Shown here: piece after piece, positions 14,381-25,281 of the stretch
Layout: each line of letters begins with the position of its first letter
Position numbering within the stretch: position 1 is the stretch's first letter
Made by a program: the position numbers and the translations under genes
The notes under the pieces: generated by a model
The model's input: only the letters and a program-made list of their open reading frames with translations
The model's database searches: none
Told to the model about the DNA's origin: nothing
Origin: Nitzschia sp. pyKryTriq1
Lineage: Eukaryota; Bacillariophyta; Bacillariophyceae; Bacillariales; Bacillariaceae
NCBI GenBank assembly: GCA_956465555.1
Contig: OY101120.1
Coordinates: 1,360,001 to 1,410,000, forward strand
DNA: 50,000 bases
Direction of reading: 5' to 3'

Positions 14381-17300
14381 TTAGACCAACGGGAAGGGTC
14401 TTTGCACTTCTCTCTCTAGAAATTTGATTCGATTCTTCAGACTAGCCACTTCTGCTCTTTTTCCCTCTTCTATCGAGTGCATCCGTGATCGAAGGTTTGA
14501 ATTCTCGTCTTGGCTGTCTTGAAGCGAGGCCTTTGCCGACACTGCGAGGCAACTGACTATTTCCTCGGCTCTAAGAGCGAGATATCGATCCACTGGATGG
14601 TCTGTAATATAAATGTCGGTCGAGAGGTGGCATGGAATACTATCTACGGCGGGACCACCATCCAGGGTTGCCATGGGACCAAAAATTTGAGCCTCCAGAA
14701 AGTCCTGTTCATCACAATTTTTGAGCAAATGAGAAAGCTTTTTACGGCCAACCTCAAGACAACGGCGACAAGCATCCCTTTCTCTCTCTGTGTTTGAGAG
14801 TCTCGTTCTCAGTCTGTCTCCTTCTTCTTTCAGTGAATCAGTGAGCCTGGTGAAGTCCTTTCGTTCATTGACGAACAGCTCAAAGCGCTCTCTAGTGTTA
14901 ACTTGAAGCTCGTCGACAGATTTCCTCATCATCGAAAGCTTTTTCTCCTGCGCAGATCTCTCAGACTCGCTTTCTTCCAAGCTATGCTCGAGGCGACGAA
15001 GATCTCTTCTCGTCGCAGAAAGCTCTTCTCTCGTTCTTTCGAGTTCAATTGAAAGAAATCTATGGGTTGAGTGCTCTTCTTGCGAGATTTCTGATGGCAT
15101 TTCTCGCTCCTGTGTTGTTGTGTTAAGATCGCCTTCGAGTTCCTCGATGCGTCGTTTGAGATTTTGAACGTAAACGTCGGAACCTTTTCTCTCGTTGTCG
15201 CGCGCAGCGTTCAATTCTTCTTCCGCACGGATGGACTCAGAGCGATATCTCTCGATTGTGTCATTCATAGCAGAAAGCCTATCTTCCGAGGTTCGCACTT
15301 GAAGCTCTAGATTGAAGACCTTCGTGTTTGACGCTTCGAGTTTTGCCATATAAGCCTCCACCTCTCTCTGTAAGCGAGAAATCTCGCCATCTCTCATCGA
15401 GGAAGACTCAATTTCCCGCTGTTTCAGCATTTGAACTTCGTGCTCAAGTTGATCTGCTCGATTCTGAGACTCGGCTATTTCTCTAGATTTTCTTTGAGCC
15501 TCATCATAGTACTCGGTTTTGTAGCGCGTCAGAACCGTATCAAGCTCTTTCCTTTCTCTCTCGGACTGCATGAACTTTTCTCTTAGCCTTTCGTTTTCTA
15601 GCCTTGCAGATTCCTCGTTGCCAAGTCGATCTTCCAGCTGGTCTATCTTGACTTCATCCGACTGCCTCTCCCTTGTCAGCTTCCTGACTTCGTCCTCGAG
15701 CTTCTCGATCACTCGGTTCTGCTTCTTCCTTTGTTCCTCCCAATAGCTTTTGTCTGACCCATCTTGGATATTTTTTTCTTCAAGATGTTGACACCTCTCC
15801 TTCAAACGAGCAATTGAAATCTCTCGGGTTGCAGCCACCTCATCTGCAAAGCTCAACCTTTGTTCCAACTCGTCAATTTGAGTTTTCATCGTTCTCTTAT
15901 CGGACTCGACGTCATCGTAAGAGGAAATTCTTTCCTGTAGATCCTTTTGAAGTCTCTCTATTGTGCCCCTGTCTCGAAGTCGCCCTTCTTCAAGAATTGT
16001 TCTTTCCTTGTGACTTTCCTCCACTGACGAAGACAAAGACCTGTTGGAAAATTTCAGCCTCTCCAATTCGAGTGCTTCCTGCCTCCTGGACTTTTCCACC
16101 TCGCGTAGATGCTCCTGTAGTTCCCGGTGATTCTTTTCGTTCTCGTTCAAACGACTGGTAAGAGCACGGATTGTGTTTTCTTTGGCGCTTGCCTCGCAGG
16201 TCAAGGTTGTGCTCTCTTCTTCTACGGTTGCAAGAGTGTGCTGGAGACTGGCGCAAGTTCGATCTATAGCTTCTTTCTCTCGCTTCAATTCGTTGAGCTC
16301 AGCCGTTACTTTGGTTATTTCCGCTTTAAGCTCACTGTTGGCATTCATAACACCATAATGCGAATCTTTTAGGGTGAGGAGCTCTCGCCGTGTTTCCTCA
16401 AACTCGCTTTCAATGTTAGCCATTGCGATTTTCATCTCATTCCCGGCCGATGTTGCCCTGTCTACAGCATTTTCGACTTTCTTTCTCTCAGAAATCGCAT
16501 CATTAAGTTGATTCTCTAACTGTTGCGCTTCTTCTTCGTATCGTTGTAGCCGACGGTCATGTTCTTCTGAAATTTTTTTGATTTCGTCCTTGAGTCCCGC
16601 AACGATGTTGGATAGTACCTCACGCTCATCAGCTAGAACAGTTATCTCATGGTGCTGATGGCTCAGCGCATTCCTGAGTTTGGAGAGGGAGTCTGCACTG
16701 GATCTCCAAAGACCACTTTGCATGTTCTGAAATTGACGAACCGCGCCCTCTAGAACATTGATGTCATCCAGATATTGCTCGCCATCTCTCTGATTTAGCC
16801 CAATGCGGAATGCGTACCCGTTTCGTTCCAATGTCGGTCCTGAGCCATAATGGCTCGCGGGGGACTGCTTTGACGGCGAAACGGACTGAAAAGCCGAGTT
16901 TAGTTGCCATTCAGTATCTTGTCGGATTCCAATTTGCGGTGAATGAGGGCCCCCAGAACGCCCGCCTTCCTGGTCAGAAGGCAGAGCTTCAATACGAGAA
17001 CGGCCCTCGGGGGATGGAAGAGAAGATCTTGATTCGCTTCGACTGATAAAAGAGTCGACGATGCTCGACTCTGGATGTGAGGTTCCATTTTCAAGTGACC
17101 CTTTCAGTTCTCTTAGATCATATTCTATCTGAGATTGCGGGTGAAGCGCTTCACTTTGGTCACTTTGTGACTGCCACTCCAGAGTCATCATTGGTTCTTC
17201 AGACGGTTCCTCCGAAGGATCCCAGCCTTCCTGGAAAATGATTTCTTCCGAAAGGTCACGAGGGACGTCCTTGCCGGCATCTTCTAATTGTACTTCGTCG

Positions 17301-19420
17301 TTGCTGCCACCTTCCAGCAAAACCACATCAAAAGCTTCTTCATACCCTCCCAAGTTCTCACCAATCTCACTTTGTCCGTCCCCGATCACCCAAGCCTGGT
17401 CGTCATCTTTGATGCTCTCTGTAGCGACATTGAATTCGGGTTCCTGTATCGGGTCATGGAAGGATGCCTCATGGCTCACATCTTGTGACTTTCCCGTACT
17501 CTCCGCCGAGACTGCATGCTCTTGTTCCTCAAAGAGTTGCCGCTCGTGTTGCGGGGTAAATTCATGCATTGTTGATGAGATATTTGAAAAGTTAAGCTCA
17601 TCCGAAGTAAATGGTCTTGATTTATCCTCTGGCTCCTCCATGCTCCACAGATCCTCGGGTTGTTCTCCGTCTTGTAGGACGATTATCTGTGGTGTGGACC
17701 GTGAGGTAGAGGGTTCTCGCGCTTCTTCCCTAGCGGGTGCGGGCGACTCCCATGCTGGCACGTCGACATCCAGACCTTGCATGTAATCAATCGGATGGTA
17801 CTCCTCTTCCACAGAACCTTGTGATTCAATGGGAATCTCTGGTTGGGTGCTACGTGGTGGTGACTGTTTGAAGATTTTGGCAAGCCGTTGTCGTGGATCG
17901 GCAATAATTTGTTCCAACAAGCTTTCATCGTTGGCATACTGCTGCAATTGATCGGTCGCGGCTGAGCTGTAGGGGGCACCAATATCCGCAATGTTGGTCG
18001 TTTCTTCTTCCGGTTGGTCCTTGCTGTTGAACGGACTACTTGCTGTCTTGCCTGGTTTGACCAGCAAACTTCTAAGAAAGTTGAGAGTGACCAAGGTGGC
18101 TTCATAGTCTTGCGAGAGTTGTGAGACGGATGCGATCAAGGCAATTTTGGAAGACTCTAGCGAGCGTTGCAAGACCTTGGTGATGGTGGATTCTCGGTAT
18201 GAAATGGCGGGATCAGTTCCGAAAGAAGCATGAATTAGGAGCTGTCGAAGTGCCAATCCTAAACTGACAGTACTGCTACTTTTCGAAGAAGTCTGCGTCG
18301 GATCAGAGGATCGTGCCAATTCGATGCAAGTGATTTCGGAATCCGGGGCCCGTTTCAACTCCTGCGAGATTGCATTGTCCCAGATACTAATTGTGGCCAC
18401 GATTGTATGTTTCTGTTTCTGTTTTTGTATTGTGGGCCACAAATCCGCCAAATCATCCAAGTGCACCTGCGTCAGCCCCTCCAACACAGCGCCTTTCATA
18501 TCGTGGTGACGAATGAAAATCGCTTTGTTTTTTCGATTGAACAGATCGCGAAAAGAATCCTTTTCCTCTCGCAATTCAACCATGGAAATGGTGGCCACAG
18601 CTTTTGGTTCCATGAGTCGTTGACAGTGCGCTACGATTTTCGCAAACAGGCATGATGAATCAAAGTTTTGCTGAGGTTCGATGCAGGCGGGAGCCTGTCC
18701 CATGCTAATCAAGAGGGAGGACTGACGTTCAACGAGTGCATCTTGCACTACGGCTCGACTGAGCGAGTCCATGGTACTGAATTGATCTGGATCGTTGGTT
18801 GAATTTGATCTTTGGTCCTCCCCGTCCTGCTGCAACGGATCAGGCCACATGACATGATGGAATTCATAAAGCCTCGCCCAGTCTTCCGACGAGATGTGAG
18901 CAACTTGCGCCACCAGTCGAGCGGTTTCCATGGTGACTTGGCTGGGGATAACTTTTCCAAAGGCGGAGGGTTTGACAACCACCATGTCGTGCGGCGATTT
19001 CGGCTTCTGGATGACATCGTTGTTGCTCTTGACATGTGGAAAGAGGCACCGCTGTTCTGACTCGTCGCACGGCAAGACGCGAACGACGATGCTGACTTTG
19101 CGACAAGGTCGCAGTGACACGAATTCCAGAAACTCCTCGCGTTGTTCACGTTGCTTCAGCAGAGGAGAAAAGGGCGACAGCAAACCATTCACGAAGGAAC
19201 GAGCCTCGGTCAACTGAGGACTCGCCATCCCACTGAGAGGGGTTTGGCGTCTTTGCTGGGACTGGGATCTGTCGTTCGCCCGGAGATGAGGGCTGGCCTG
19301 TGAAGTGTCCAGCCGTCGCAGCTCTTCGTCTTCCTCAAGCTCGTGGCTTTCCCCAGCCACGTCGTGCAGGTAGTCCTCGTAGGACTTCTTGGGCGCAGTC
19401 TCGGGGGTGGGGACGTGCAT
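14381..19420 (-). CDS. Kinesin-like protein with degenerate, nucleotide-binding-dead motor and long coiled coil
   Basis: Single exon of 1679 aa. Residues about 108-452 follow the kinesin motor fold in order. The first strand is KVSIVVRVLPCDE (108-120). YEFHHVMWPD (185-194) matches the F-x-FD-x-VF-x-P block. VVQDALVERQSSLLISMGQA (224-243) stands where the P-loop GQTGSGKT should be. IFIRHHDMKGAVLEGLTQVH (301-320) matches the 'I+E....V.GLTEV' region. ITCIELARSSD (363-373) replaces switch II DLAGSE. ISYRESTITKVLQRSLESSK (406-425) matches PYRDSKLTRLLQDSLGGN. QDYEATLVTLNFL (437-449) matches NYEETLSTLRYA. Walker A is absent and no switch I NxxSSRSH is seen. An acidic, low-complexity linker (about 460-870) follows, then a heptad-rich coiled coil (about 880-1500). 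It is probably a microtubule- or partner-binding scaffold rather than a motor. Low-complexity content and an intact frame argue against a pseudogene. Confidence 0.7.
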   Translation of the reverse strand: MHVPTPETAPKKSYEDYLHDVAGESHELEEDEELRRLDTSQASPHLRANDRSQSQQRRQTPLSGMASPQLTEARSFVNGLLSPFSPLLKQREQREEFLEFVSLRPCRKVSIVVRVLPCDESEQRCLFPHVKSNNDVIQKPKSPHDMVVVKPSAFGKVIPSQVTMETARLVAQVAHISSEDWARLYEFHHVMWPDPLQQDGEDQRSNSTNDPDQFSTMDSLSRAVVQDALVERQSSLLISMGQAPACIEPQQNFDSSCLFAKIVAHCQRLMEPKAVATISMVELREEKDSFRDLFNRKNKAIFIRHHDMKGAVLEGLTQVHLDDLADLWPTIQKQKQKHTIVATISIWDNAISQELKRAPDSEITCIELARSSDPTQTSSKSSSTVSLGLALRQLLIHASFGTDPAISYRESTITKVLQRSLESSKIALIASVSQLSQDYEATLVTLNFLRSLLVKPGKTASSPFNSKDQPEEETTNIADIGAPYSSAATDQLQQYANDESLLEQIIADPRQRLAKIFKQSPPRSTQPEIPIESQGSVEEEYHPIDYMQGLDVDVPAWESPAPAREEAREPSTSRSTPQIIVLQDGEQPEDLWSMEEPEDKSRPFTSDELNFSNISSTMHEFTPQHERQLFEEQEHAVSAESTGKSQDVSHEASFHDPIQEPEFNVATESIKDDDQAWVIGDGQSEIGENLGGYEEAFDVVLLEGGSNDEVQLEDAGKDVPRDLSEEIIFQEGWDPSEEPSEEPMMTLEWQSQSDQSEALHPQSQIEYDLRELKGSLENGTSHPESSIVDSFISRSESRSSLPSPEGRSRIEALPSDQEGGRSGGPHSPQIGIRQDTEWQLNSAFQSVSPSKQSPASHYGSGPTLERNGYAFRIGLNQRDGEQYLDDINVLEGAVRQFQNMQSGLWRSSADSLSKLRNALSHQHHEITVLADEREVLSNIVAGLKDEIKKISEEHDRRLQRYEEEAQQLENQLNDAISERKKVENAVDRATSAGNEMKIAMANIESEFEETRRELLTLKDSHYGVMNANSELKAEITKVTAELNELKREKEAIDRTCASLQHTLATVEEESTTLTCEASAKENTIRALTSRLNENEKNHRELQEHLREVEKSRRQEALELERLKFSNRSLSSSVEESHKERTILEEGRLRDRGTIERLQKDLQERISSYDDVESDKRTMKTQIDELEQRLSFADEVAATREISIARLKERCQHLEEKNIQDGSDKSYWEEQRKKQNRVIEKLEDEVRKLTRERQSDEVKIDQLEDRLGNEESARLENERLREKFMQSERERKELDTVLTRYKTEYYDEAQRKSREIAESQNRADQLEHEVQMLKQREIESSSMRDGEISRLQREVEAYMAKLEASNTKVFNLELQVRTSEDRLSAMNDTIERYRSESIRAEEELNAARDNERKGSDVYVQNLKRRIEELEGDLNTTTQEREMPSEISQEEHSTHRFLSIELERTREELSATRRDLRRLEHSLEESESERSAQEKKLSMMRKSVDELQVNTRERFELFVNERKDFTRLTDSLKEEGDRLRTRLSNTERERDACRRCLEVGRKKLSHLLKNCDEQDFLEAQIFGPMATLDGGPAVDSIPCHLSTDIYITDHPVDRYLALRAEEIVSCLAVSAKASLQDSQDENSNLRSRMHSIEEGKRAEVASLKNRIKFLEREVQRPFPLV

Positions 19421-19850
19421 CGTGGTGAGTGGTGGATGACGGCCGATGCGATTCCTGCTGACTTGTACAAGTACGTGTAGTAGAGCACCTTCGGGTGCTT
19501 TGTGCCATGGTCGACCATGAAGATGATCGATGATGATGGATGATGATGAGATGATTCTTCGACTGCAAGGATGGCTTGTTTTCTTACTCTCTGCTTGTTC
19601 CCGCGCGTCGTCATTGGGCGTGGATCAGGCTTGAAGGCTACCGGTACGTACCGGTACGTACCGGCACGTACAAGCTGTCCCGGTTACCGGTGGTTATACC
19701 AGAGAGGTATAACAAGACTCGATTCAGGACTCAGAGAAGAAGGACGTCTCGAGTCACGAAGACCATGACGACACGATCAGGTATGCGACACAACCGCAGG
19801 GTACCTCTGTTCTCTGACTTACACGAAGACAAAAAGCACGTGCTTTCACT
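19421..19850. other. Upstream region of the kinesin-like gene
   Basis: No gene seen. It contains ATGATG-rich sequence near 19518-19552 and a GTAC cluster at 19640-19682 (CTACCGGTACGTACCGGTAC). Confidence 0.4.
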
Positions 19851-19965: not shown

Positions 19966-20280
19966 CAAGTAGTAGTCATAGAACAGGAAGAATTCAGATC
20001 CACCATCGAGAGGTAGATGATGGAGCAGCCATCATCGGTGGTGATCTTGACCTTGGAGAACATTTTGCTGAGGATCTACAAGACACTTTGCAGCAAGCGA
20101 TGAGTGATGCTGTGAGGCACAACTACCAAAGAAGACTACTGCGTAATATCCACTATCTGAAAGCCAATTTTTCAACCTATTATGAGCAAGGAGTAGTACA
20201 AGTCTTGGAGGTTGATCTTCAAGATCCCTCCAAGTACTACTTCAACAAGTACAAAGTAGATCTCAAATACACTGGACTTA
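19966..20280 (+). pseudogene. Fragment of an integrase/recombinase-type mobile ORF (tentative)
   Basis: An open frame without a usable ATG encodes EHFAEDLQDTLQQAMSDAVR, NYQRRLLRNIHYLKANFSTY, YEQGVVQVLEVDLQDPSKYY and FNKYKVDLKYTGL. The 'YY..GV..L....L.DP..YYF.K.K.DL.YTGL' pattern recalls the N-terminal region of abundant diatom tyrosine-recombinase (Crypton-like) ORFs; this is from memory and unverified. The coding sense stops exactly where the 41-bp minisatellite begins, so the 3' part, including any catalytic domain, is missing. Frame-matched residues further upstream (from 19851) are low complexity. Confidence 0.35.
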
Positions 20281-21135
20281 GTGATAGACATTATGTTCTT
20301 TTCATTCACGCGATAACGCTAGTAATAGACATTGTTTCTTTTCGTGCACGCGATAGCGCTAGTAATAGACGTTAATTCACATTCGTGCACGCGATAGCGC
20401 TAGTAATAGACATCATGTTATTTTCATTCACGCGATAGCGCTAGCAATAGACAATATTTTATTTTCGTTCACGCGATAGCGCTAGTAATAGGCATTAATT
20501 CACATTCGAGCACGCGATAGCGCTAGTGATAGACATTATTTTATTGTCATTCACGCGATAACGCTATGTAGTAATAGACATTATTTTATTTTCGTTCACG
20601 CGATAGCAATAGACATTAATTCACATTCGTGCACGCGATAGCGCTAGTAATATACACTATGTTATTTTCATTCACGCGATAGCGCTGCTAATAGACAATA
20701 TTTTATTTTCGTTCACGCGATAGCGCTAGTAATAGGCATTAATTCACATTCGAGGACGCGATAGCGCTATTAATAGGCATTAATTCACATTCGAGCACGC
20801 GATAGCGCTAGTGATAGACATTATTTTATTTTCATTCACGCGATAGCGCTGGTAATAGACAATATTTTATTTTCGTTCACGCGATAGCGCTAGTAATAGG
20901 CATTAATTCACATTCGAGGACGCGATAGCGCCAGTGATAGACATTGTGTTATTGTCATTCACGCGATAGCGCTAGTAATAGACATTAATTCACATTCGTG
21001 CACGCGATAGCGCTAGTAATAGACATTCTTTGATTTTCATTCACGCGATAGCGCTAGTAATAGACATTAATTCACATTCGTGCACGCGATAGCGCTAGTA
21101 ATAGACATTATGTTATTTTCATTCACGCGATAGCT
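20276..21135. repeat. 41-bp minisatellite, about 21 copies
   Basis: Every unit carries a CACGCGATAGCGCTAGTAAT core with the 8-bp palindrome TAGCGCTA. Two variable halves alternate: one reads ACATTAATTCACATTCGTG, the other ACATTATGTTATTTTCATT. Both make a 41-bp period, and in places they form an 82-bp higher-order unit. Single-base variants (GATAACGCT, GACAATATT, CGAGGACGC) and one shortened unit near 20600 mark older divergence. The array ends abruptly at about 21135. It has no spacers and is not a CRISPR. Confidence 0.93.
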
Positions 21136-21960: not shown

Positions 21961-24900
21961 ATGAAGTTGGGTTCGATCTTTGGATGCGTACTTGTACTGC
22001 TGCTCCAAGCAGCAGAAGCCAAGATTAACGAGCGCGAGGTTCTGTTGGAATTCTTCCAGGCGACAGGAGGGCACGCATGGAACGAAAACTACGGCTGGGC
22101 CTCTAAGAGTGGCGATATTTGCGAGTGGCATGGTGTCGTTTGTGACGGTCAAGAGCTCAAGGACCAAGGCCGCCGCGTCCAGGAAGGAGGCAGTGCTGGC
22201 AAAGTCCTGGGCTTGCTTCTCTCCAGCAACTTTATGACGGGAAGGACGCCAGCCTCTTTGTGGACGCTACCCGCTCTAGTAGCTGTGGACTTCTCAGACA
22301 ACCCCCGCTTGGATGTCGATTTTTCCGGACTGCAAAGTGATGACAGCTCGCCTCTCCAGAGCCTCAAACTCCGCTCTTCTGCCACCACCAGCGTGGTAGG
22401 GCTCGCAGGAGCTTCGGCCACCCTGGAAGAAGTCGACCTGTCGAAGACCAAACTCAGCAGTCAACTGCCTCCGGACATTTACTCGCTGACACAGCTTTCT
22501 TCGCTCCAGCTGGCCGAGTGTGGCCTCCTCGGAAGCATCCCCGATGAGATTCAACGCCTAAGTGTTCTCCATGAACTCAACCTCTTCCAAAACGCCCTCA
22601 CCGGCAACTTGCCGGAGGGGGTGGCTCGCCTCGTGCACTTGAGACAGTTCACGCTCAGCTACAATCAATTCCATGGCACTATTCCCGCATACATAAGCGA
22701 CCTTGTCCTACTGCGAGAATTCTGGGCCCACAACAATGACTTCACAGGCCCGATGCCAAGTTTTCACCAAGCCCCTGATATTCACAAGATCTACCTCAAT
22801 GATAACTCGTTGAGCGGAGAATTTCCTCCCAATTTCATCCAAGCCACGCTTGGTGGCATGCAGGAATCTGGAACCATCCATATCAATATCGCCAGCAACG
22901 AGTTGACGGGGTCCGTCCCCGCATCCTTGGATGACCTGGAAGAGCTTGACATTATTTGGATGCTTGGAGACAATAAATGGACAGGAGTCCCCGACGTCGT
23001 CTGTGACAACTCAAACTGGAACGACGGAGCCATCGAAGAATTCGGCTGCTTTGGATTCCTTTGTCCTCCTGAAACCTTTTCACGACATGGATTTCAGACC
23101 CCGGACACGGAGTGCCAACCATGTGCGTCAGCAGCGTTCTTTGGAGCCACTAATTGTTTTGACAAAGACGATAGAAGTGTCCTGGTAGAACTATACGTCG
23201 AAACTCAAGGAGAAAAATGGGATCGATCCGATAACTGGTTGAAGGAAGACGACTTTTGTACTTGGTACGGTGTGGAATGTTGGGATATCGGAGACTCAAA
23301 GACGGGAAGAGTCCGCAAGATCATGCTACCTAATAATGGCTTGGTGGGGACCATCCCGGAAACCATGTACAGTATGCATCACTTGACGACAGTTGACTTC
23401 TCTCGAAATGAAATTGTCTTGCCATTTACAAATATTGGTGAGGCCCAGCATATTTTCAGTGTGAATGTTGCCAAGACCAGAACCAAGGATTTCGATGGCA
23501 TCGAAGACGCGACCGACTTTTTCCATGAACTCTTCGCTGATCAGACTCCCATTTCTGGAAGCTTTCCCACGGAAATCTTGGCAGTACAAAGCTTGAAAAT
23601 CCTGTCACTGCAAGAATGCGACTTATCCGGCGCCCTACCGGACAAACTCTTTGATCTCGTGTCTCTTGAAGAGCTGTATCTTTCCAACAATAATCTCCGA
23701 GGAAACATACCTGATCGATGGAACGAACTAAAGAGCCTTCAAGTGTTGGCTCTTGCGAAGAATCAATTCAAGGGCCCAATGCCTGCTTCTCTGGACAACG
23801 CTATTAGTTTGACCGCCGTATCTTTGCAGGATCAAGTCTCCAAGGGCGGAGGTCTTTCAGGGGTCGTTCTTCCCTTTTCGACTACAACTACCATTCGCAC
23901 GCTCTTGTTGGGAAGCAACAAGTTGGAAGGTGATTTGCCTGAAGACCTTCTGACCGGTGTCGAAGGAGAGTTACCCATTACTGTTGATCTTTCCAATAAT
24001 TTGGTCACGGGTAAAGTTCATGGAACCTACGATAGGTTCAAGAGAATGAACCTCTATCTGGAAGGAAATCTTATCACCCAAGTTGAGGAAAAACTCTGTT
24101 CGCAGGAGAATTGGATGGAAGGTAGCGTGGGACAGTATGGATGCGACGCTATTCTTTGTCCTTCAGGCACCATGGGGGGACGCCGACAATTCTCGGACTC
24201 AACTTGCCAAAAGTGTGACAAAAATCGCCCAGGTGGCGTCTCCTTCTTGGGTCAAGCCGGCTGTGGTGATGATGATGCCAGTAACTTGTCGGAAAGAGAC
24301 ATTCTGGAACTACTGTACGATCGTGGTGGAGGTGTTGGTTGGCATGCCCGTGACAATTGGATGTCGGGTTCCTCCATTTGCGAGTGGTACGGAATCGATT
24401 GTAATGAAAACGGATCAGTAACCTCTGTACAACTCGGCGGCAATCAACTGGTGGGATCGTTCCCCACCGAGATGTATCTTCTCCCAAATCTTGTGCATCT
24501 CAAGCTTTATTCGAACACGTTATATTTCAACTTCGACGGCATTGAAAACGCCAAGAAACTCAAGACGCTTGGGCTGGACAACACGGGCCTCACTTCCTTG
24601 AGCGGTGTTGGCGGAGCTCGGTCACTACAAGAGCTCAATGTTGCATCAAACAAGCTCTCTGACGCCATCCCCGAAGAACTCTCGCGTCTGGTAAATCTTC
24701 AAACCTTGGATATTTCTCGGAACAATTTCAAAGGGTACCTTCCGTACTGGCTTCGAAGCTTGATTTCCTTGACAACCTTTACGGCCTCCCACAATAAGTT
24801 TTCGGGTCCAGTCGACGATTTTGCGTCTTTGAGAGACTTGATTTATCTGGACTTGAGTCACAACAAGCTAACTGGTTCTGTCCCCGCCACACTCCTCAAA

Positions 24901-25281
24901 AGTGCGCCGGCTGATCAGAAACTAGTTGTCGATCTTTCCTCCAATTCTTTGACAGGGCAAGTTCCTGCGGCTCTCTCTCGCCTTTCTCGACTGTCTTTGC
25001 AGGTACAAGACAACCAGATCTCCGGAGTGGACAATAAACTCTGCCAAGTCGAAGGATGGAATGACTTTGCGGTGAAAAGTTTTGGATGTGATGCCATTTT
25101 GTGCCCTGCTGGGACATGGAATCATCTGGGACATCAATCAAATAGCAATTCCCCCTGTACCGATTGTCGTAAAGCGAAATACATGGGGACCACTCATTGT
25201 CATGGAAGCGGGGCGCCCAGCATGTGGTCGACTGGTACAGCTTTGACTTTGTGCTTGCTTTCCTGGGTTATGTTCCTGTAA
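21961..25281 (+). CDS. Secreted, probably GPI-anchored protein with three tandem LRR modules
   Basis: Single exon, 1106 aa. It begins with a signal peptide (MKLGSIFGCVLVLLLQAAEA). It then has three copies of one architecture: an LRR N-cap with the plant-type LLEFFQATGGHAWNENYGW, CEWHGVVCDG pattern; a run of plant-type LRRs (L..L.L..N.L.G.IP); and a Cys-rich C-cap ending FGCDAILCPSGT, C..C. The N-caps start near residues 23, 402 and 780 (CEWHGVVC, CTWYGVEC, CEWYGIDC). The C-caps are near 355-395, 700-765 and 1030-1082. No kinase or obvious cytoplasmic domain follows. The C-terminus is a small-residue stretch (HGSGAPSMWSTG) plus the hydrophobic tail TALTLCLLSWVMFL, the form of a GPI-attachment signal. 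It is probably a cell-surface or frustule-associated recognition or adhesion protein. Function is inferred. Confidence 0.8.
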   Translation: MKLGSIFGCVLVLLLQAAEAKINEREVLLEFFQATGGHAWNENYGWASKSGDICEWHGVVCDGQELKDQGRRVQEGGSAGKVLGLLLSSNFMTGRTPASLWTLPALVAVDFSDNPRLDVDFSGLQSDDSSPLQSLKLRSSATTSVVGLAGASATLEEVDLSKTKLSSQLPPDIYSLTQLSSLQLAECGLLGSIPDEIQRLSVLHELNLFQNALTGNLPEGVARLVHLRQFTLSYNQFHGTIPAYISDLVLLREFWAHNNDFTGPMPSFHQAPDIHKIYLNDNSLSGEFPPNFIQATLGGMQESGTIHINIASNELTGSVPASLDDLEELDIIWMLGDNKWTGVPDVVCDNSNWNDGAIEEFGCFGFLCPPETFSRHGFQTPDTECQPCASAAFFGATNCFDKDDRSVLVELYVETQGEKWDRSDNWLKEDDFCTWYGVECWDIGDSKTGRVRKIMLPNNGLVGTIPETMYSMHHLTTVDFSRNEIVLPFTNIGEAQHIFSVNVAKTRTKDFDGIEDATDFFHELFADQTPISGSFPTEILAVQSLKILSLQECDLSGALPDKLFDLVSLEELYLSNNNLRGNIPDRWNELKSLQVLALAKNQFKGPMPASLDNAISLTAVSLQDQVSKGGGLSGVVLPFSTTTTIRTLLLGSNKLEGDLPEDLLTGVEGELPITVDLSNNLVTGKVHGTYDRFKRMNLYLEGNLITQVEEKLCSQENWMEGSVGQYGCDAILCPSGTMGGRRQFSDSTCQKCDKNRPGGVSFLGQAGCGDDDASNLSERDILELLYDRGGGVGWHARDNWMSGSSICEWYGIDCNENGSVTSVQLGGNQLVGSFPTEMYLLPNLVHLKLYSNTLYFNFDGIENAKKLKTLGLDNTGLTSLSGVGGARSLQELNVASNKLSDAIPEELSRLVNLQTLDISRNNFKGYLPYWLRSLISLTTFTASHNKFSGPVDDFASLRDLIYLDLSHNKLTGSVPATLLKSAPADQKLVVDLSSNSLTGQVPAALSRLSRLSLQVQDNQISGVDNKLCQVEGWNDFAVKSFGCDAILCPAGTWNHLGHQSNSNSPCTDCRKAKYMGTTHCHGSGAPSMWSTGTALTLCLLSWVMFL

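Follow-up and report, generated by a model that had tools for sequence, protein, structure and literature searches.

Pseudo-motors reveal what the kinesin fold is worth without ATP, and several are already known. KIF26B, which lacks the IFAYGQT and DLAGSE motifs, has no ATPase activity and is associated with microtubules (PMC3387196, in the excerpt available). Vik1 and Cik1, the yeast kinesin-14 partners, have a microtubule site but not the elements for ATP binding and hydrolysis, and they serve as a foothold (PMC4338441, also in excerpt). A 2016 analysis recognizes a fungal orphan group, pseudoKinesin-21, and a family of chromists and protozoa, Kinesin-20 (PMC5076506, as excerpted). For diatoms and stramenopiles, no kinesin without nucleotide motifs was among the matches listed from the titles and abstract starts of the open-licence literature. 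Genes of this kind can escape kinesin surveys, because a 2006 survey of photosynthetic eukaryotes, in the portion available (PMC1434745), dropped rice candidates without conserved regions (e.g. ATP-binding sites) and also dropped truncated Thalassiosira candidates.

Here we describe a diatom gene whose 1679-residue product carries a divergent kinesin-type head at its N terminus; what is new is such a case in a lineage that has none in the open-licence literature listed. The gene lies in a window of 50,000 nucleotides (positions 1360001-1410000 of contig C6), and the genome searched comprises 40.65 Mb in 20 contigs. KIF26A and KIF26B (kinesin-11) resemble it by description, the head likewise being without P-loop and switch II consensus, whereas their roles are in animal signalling and a coiled coil of ~680 residues is not among the features described in the excerpt of PMC3387196. 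Vik1 and Cik1, again by description, share a motor homology domain without ATP elements in a dimerizing protein; however, their domain is C-terminal and the present one occupies aa 107-452 of 1679 (PMC4338441, in excerpt). The comparison with Vik1 made in an earlier note on this DNA is fair in function, therefore, but not in architecture, and KIF26 appears to be the closer published parallel (PMC3387196, in excerpt). None of KIF26, Vik1 and Cik1 was among the best 60 of 75 PDB matches. A third case, yeast Smy1, has an N-terminal head in a much shorter protein. Its ATP pocket is likewise deviant by description, and so are its microtubule-binding sites (PMC3387196, in excerpt).

A kinesin-type head in one long open frame

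The coordinates first proposed for the head, 18040..19110 on the minus strand, are right and correspond to aa ~104-460 of a single ATG-to-stop frame, which bears out the proposed length of 1679 residues (Table 1). At this base composition, the probability of so long a frame staying open by chance is ~1e-38. Codon usage preferred frame 0 over the other five frames in all five segments tested, its closest rival being a minus-strand frame in aa 101-270 (0.136 vs 0.147). Together, the open codons and the frame-0 codon usage favour a working gene. No close paralogue emerged from a protein search, in which the two further matches had E values of 0.127 and 0.399.

Table 1. Coordinates of the gene, its parts and four further kinesin genes that have lost switch motifs. 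Positions without a contig prefix are those of the window.
Feature	Position	Strand	Basis or remark
Whole gene P0001	19420..14381	minus	one unbroken ATG-to-stop frame, 1679 aa
Kinesin motor homology domain, aa 107-452	18065..19102	minus	Pfam, hhalign, shuffles, control segments
Pfam Kinesin stretch above cut-off, aa 272-448	18077..18607	minus	Pfam and genome search
Strand 1, aa 112-117 VVRVLP, degenerate RxRP base-binding motif	19070..19087	minus	alignments
P-loop position, aa 240-248 MGQAPACIE, without GK	18677..18703	minus	hhalign and 3/4 global-alignment gap settings
Near expected switch I (NxxSSRSH), aa 333-341 KQKQKHTIV	18398..18424	minus	phmmer and profile alignments
Degenerate switch II, aa 365-373 CIELARSSD (canonical VDLAGSE)	18302..18328	minus	PDB and profile alignments
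L12/alpha5, aa 407-424 SYRESTITKVLQRSLESS, part of best-conserved region	18149..18202	minus	PDB and global alignments
Strand 8 and alpha6 of head, aa 425-449	18074..18148	minus	alignments
Acidic linker, aa 461-890, no domain match	16751..18040	minus	89 D+E vs 28 K+R in 430 aa
Coiled coil, aa ~891-1568	14717..16750	minus	heptad periodicity
C-terminal segment, aa 1569-1679, no domain match	14384..14716	minus	aa 1569-1624 without heptad signal
L021	C10:1150821-1151885	minus	switch I ETTSH, switch II VDLAASN
L029	C4:918139-919029	minus	P-loop GTSGSGKA, both switches gone
L030	C1:2078765-2080015	minus	switch I gone, switch II DMAGLE
L031	C4:2304361-2304891	plus	both switches gone

By sequence, the head is recognizably a kinesin motor, with homology above chance. 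The Pfam Kinesin model (PF00225) scores 42.7 bits against aa 272-448 (cut-off 29.3, E 4.5e-11), and a six-frame search of the genome recovered the same head at 45.6 bits. Against PDB chains, phmmer ranked kinesin-5 Klp61F (E 6.9e-6) and KIF13B (E 7.7e-6) best. The profile search that the earlier note had proposed was run with hhalign, single sequence against a profile of the genome's other kinesins, and returned 98.9% over 308 of 345 columns; the match is co-linear over aa 107-452, as expected from the kinesin motor order claimed for residues 108-452. With the head scored alone and HMMER filters off, our own profile, built from this genome's other kinesins only and excluding the window sequence, gave 44.5 bits (best single stretch 36.8), compared with a maximum of 7.9 among 2000 whole-head shuffles, 1679 of which were reported.

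The two halves of the head contribute unequally. The C-terminal half (aa 271-456) lies at z 13.9 above its shuffles, none of 300 scoring as high, and its kinesin homology, as judged from these scores, is certain. Homology of the N-terminal half (aa 101-270), which holds the P-loop position, appears weaker: z is 4.1, with 0/500 shuffles as high, and the score of 5.8 compares with 1.5 for the best of 107 control segments (27 drawn from farther along this protein and 80 from six other window frames). HMMER gives this half 6.8 bits against a shuffle maximum of 5.8 (2000 shuffles, 1722 reported), and hhalign of the half by itself returned 0.2%, without significance.

AlphaFold modelling of the motor alone reached a mean pLDDT of 33.4, too poor to judge the fold. 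A second model, made with one partial relative row, had a mean of 36.3. Its C-terminal half shows strands and helices in kinesin order, an arrangement that carries no weight here because pLDDT is below 50 at 329 of the 351 residues. It is from sequence that we infer a kinesin fold for the head.

Three scans of viral contigs for relatives confirmed none. A scan of genome contigs, whose query profile combined three of this genome's canonical kinesins, listed among its matches an exon-split, eukaryotic-looking kinesin (L032, JAIYDP010000249.1) in a Verrucomicrobiaceae bin, a bacterial metagenome-assembled genome. It is probably eukaryotic contamination of that bin, and its exon pieces gave no sensible alignment with the N-terminal half.

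Nucleotide motifs of the head

A Walker A motif, G-x4-G-K-[ST], is absent from the whole protein and from the three minus-strand frames of 18001-19500. The earlier placement of MGQAPACIE at the P-loop is borne out by hhalign and, at three of its four gap settings, by global alignment, in which MGQAPA is paired and the GKT columns fall in a gap; at the remaining setting the P-loop stays unpaired. A MAFFT alignment that included one foreign fragment preferred a different register, likewise without GK. Because the N-terminal half is insignificant in hhalign by itself, the evidence for the register at the P-loop is co-linearity together with the shuffle tests.

At switch I, profile aligners leave a gap of ~9-12 columns, and phmmer pairs KQKHTIV with SRSHTVF of Klp61F. 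The motif appears from these alignments to be deleted or replaced. The statement that no switch I is found is thus correct in that NxxSSRSH is absent, but its place can be located, either as the gap or as KQKHTIV. The degenerate switch II reported as IELARSSD is seen in the PDB alignments, ELARSS occupying the position of DLAGSE with E for D, R for G and S for E. The broader statement of the earlier note, that all nucleotide-binding motifs are lost, holds for the P-loop, switch I and switch II; RxRP is partly kept, as RVLP.

Fifty positions are near-invariant, each at least 80% constant among the 20 other kinesins of the genome. The head keeps 6/18 of those in nucleotide motifs (33%) and 12/32 of those elsewhere (38%). 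Since these proportions are alike, divergence runs through the whole head, and motif loss cannot be called cleanly local. The case for motif loss therefore rests not on their count but on the identity of the lost residues: the 12 lost nucleotide-motif positions include the P-loop G-K-T, the N, S, R, S and H of switch I, and the D, G and E of switch II.

On this sequence, ATP binding by the head is very unlikely. It could be argued that nucleotide is still bound through non-canonical residues, given that RxRP retains R114 and P117, the P-loop position G241, and switch II L368, A369 and S371, and what is left of the P-loop and switch II scores positive against the profile (8.5 and 8.2 bits). However, the P-loop has lost its lysine and threonine, switch I is gone and switch II is without its D, G and E; we regard such binding as the least probable of the readings considered.

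Other kinesins of the genome

The genome search returned 36 kinesin matches in 21 places, and we count these as at least 21 genes: the window's and 20 others. The heads of the others are co-linear with the window's head, in which the best-preserved parts are strands 4-5 and L12-alpha6. All 20 have the P-loop lysine, leaving the window's head as the exception; the lysine was found at the aligned column in 18, by motif search in L017 and in a short exon in L022. In some genes it was identified in the exon downstream of an intron, with intron borders that are approximate.

Among the 21 heads the window's diverges most: its identity to the 15 canonical heads averages 17.9%, and those 15 are 28.6-38.9% identical among themselves. 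Four other genes have lost switch I while retaining the P-loop lysine (Table 1), and three of these (L021, L029 and L031) are also without the switch II consensus. L028, in which switch I is altered in part, was placed neither with the canonical 15 nor with these four. By pairwise score, L029, L021 and L031 are each nearest to a different ordinary kinesin, which suggests separate losses. For L030 and the window head alike, the nearest is L013, by narrow margins.

In about nine of the 20 other genes (L015, L016, L017, L018, L022, L023, L025, L026 and L027) an intron appears to interrupt or immediately adjoin the P-loop codons, which makes a mis-read P-loop conceivable and the window's gene, in principle, a damaged copy or mis-assembly of an ordinary kinesin. 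We consider this highly improbable, given that 1679 codons are open with frame 0 preferred throughout by codon usage, that kinesin similarity is found in one and the same frame before and after the P-loop position, and that the loss hits three separate motifs rather than one; a Walker A motif is also missing from the head region in each of the three minus-strand frames.

A proposed static tether

The preferred explanation, which we think on balance probable, is that of a pseudo-kinesin: a nucleotide-free head of kinesin type, an acidic linker and a dimerizing coiled coil that together act as an ATP-independent tether or scaffold. The protein would then be a non-moving relative of a motor and probably not a motor itself. 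The sequence supports the view, put forward in the earlier note, that the protein is large, carries its pseudo-kinesin head at the N terminus and has a long coiled coil. Besides Kinesin, no Pfam family exceeds its cut-off anywhere in the protein. A simple heptad test of our own making, run in blocks to aa 1624, gave a signal at p <= 0.05 against shuffles in 9 of 12 56-residue blocks between aa 897 and 1568 and in none of the 16 blocks before. By this test the long coiled coil is present as described, but extends over ~680 residues and not 600, and a dimer through it is likely.

A head that had lost ATP binding and hydrolysis would have no nucleotide cycle and would be unable to step. The acidic linker would join this head to the long coiled coil, through which the dimer would form, and the paired heads could then grip one surface constantly, leaving the coiled coil and C-terminal segment to hold a different target. 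The gripped surface would most likely be a microtubule, contacted through the preserved L12/alpha5 side. That the heads bind a microtubule is nevertheless a guess, to which we give somewhat less than an even chance. The microtubule scaffold suggested in the earlier note is likewise conjecture.

The distribution of signal along the head bears on this choice of surface. With region names that we assigned from kinesin anatomy as we take it to be, strand 1 scores 16.6 bits, columns 20-50 score 3.4, strands 2-3 25.4, the P-loop 8.5 (6/11 columns aligned), alpha2 11.1, strands 4-5 44.4, switch I 2.7 (3/15 columns aligned), strands 6-7 3.8, switch II 8.2 and L12-alpha6 56.7. Helix alpha4 has no recognizable signal, at -0.2 bits over 31 columns. 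L12/alpha5 and alpha4 are tubulin-facing elements of a kinesin head, and the absence of signal from alpha4 speaks against ordinary microtubule binding. With L12/alpha5 kept and alpha4 apparently lost, altered binding and lost binding fit about equally well.

The head may therefore belong to a scaffold that no longer binds microtubules, its kinesin fold re-used as a protein-binding module, which is the role it has in yeast Smy1. The missing alpha4 signal and the degenerate switch II would suit such a use, as would the precedent of Smy1, deviant in both ATP pocket and microtubule-binding sites (PMC3387196, in excerpt), whereas L12/alpha5 falls within the best-conserved region of the head. We judge this reading unlikely, though worth keeping in view. 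Alternatively, the head could be the non-catalytic partner in a heterodimer with an active kinesin, giving a foothold as Vik1 and Cik1 do for Kar3. That mechanism is published (PMC4338441, in excerpt), the genome offers 15 canonical kinesin genes, together with L028 and its partly altered switch I, as candidate partners, and a long coiled coil is present. The N-terminal head is unlike Vik1 and Cik1, however, and with a coiled coil of ~680 residues placed after a linker of 430 the two heads need not be close; a partner head is improbable. We thus rank the microtubule tether first, the scaffold off microtubules second and the partner head third.

The characterized cases are fungal or animal in the excerpts of PMC3387196 and PMC4338441, and a diatom case would put the change from motor to static protein in another branch of eukaryotes. 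It is tempting to speculate that diatoms evolved lineage-specific N-terminal, nucleotide-free kinesins as dimeric, permanent microtubule tethers, with the window gene standing at the far end of a broader drift within one genome, 5/21 heads showing motif losses that are probably separate; we hold this broader proposal to be doubtful. The spindle and microtubule centre of diatoms are unusual, and a static microtubule tether, if true, would be a testable component.

Neighbouring sequence and genome

Between the kinesin gene and a leucine-rich-repeat gene, a 41-bp tandem repeat runs for 21 copies (20279-21134), also readable as a 123-bp unit. Beyond it, on the opposite strand, the leucine-rich-repeat gene (21961-25281) encodes 1106 residues with an N terminus that by eye resembles a signal peptide. 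The segment 34923-35570 resembles, also by eye, the end of a Copia-type retroelement polyprotein. Across the genome, the silicon transporter family PF03842 has eight matches, which make a diatom the likely host: one scores 451.5 bits and each of the other seven more than 870.
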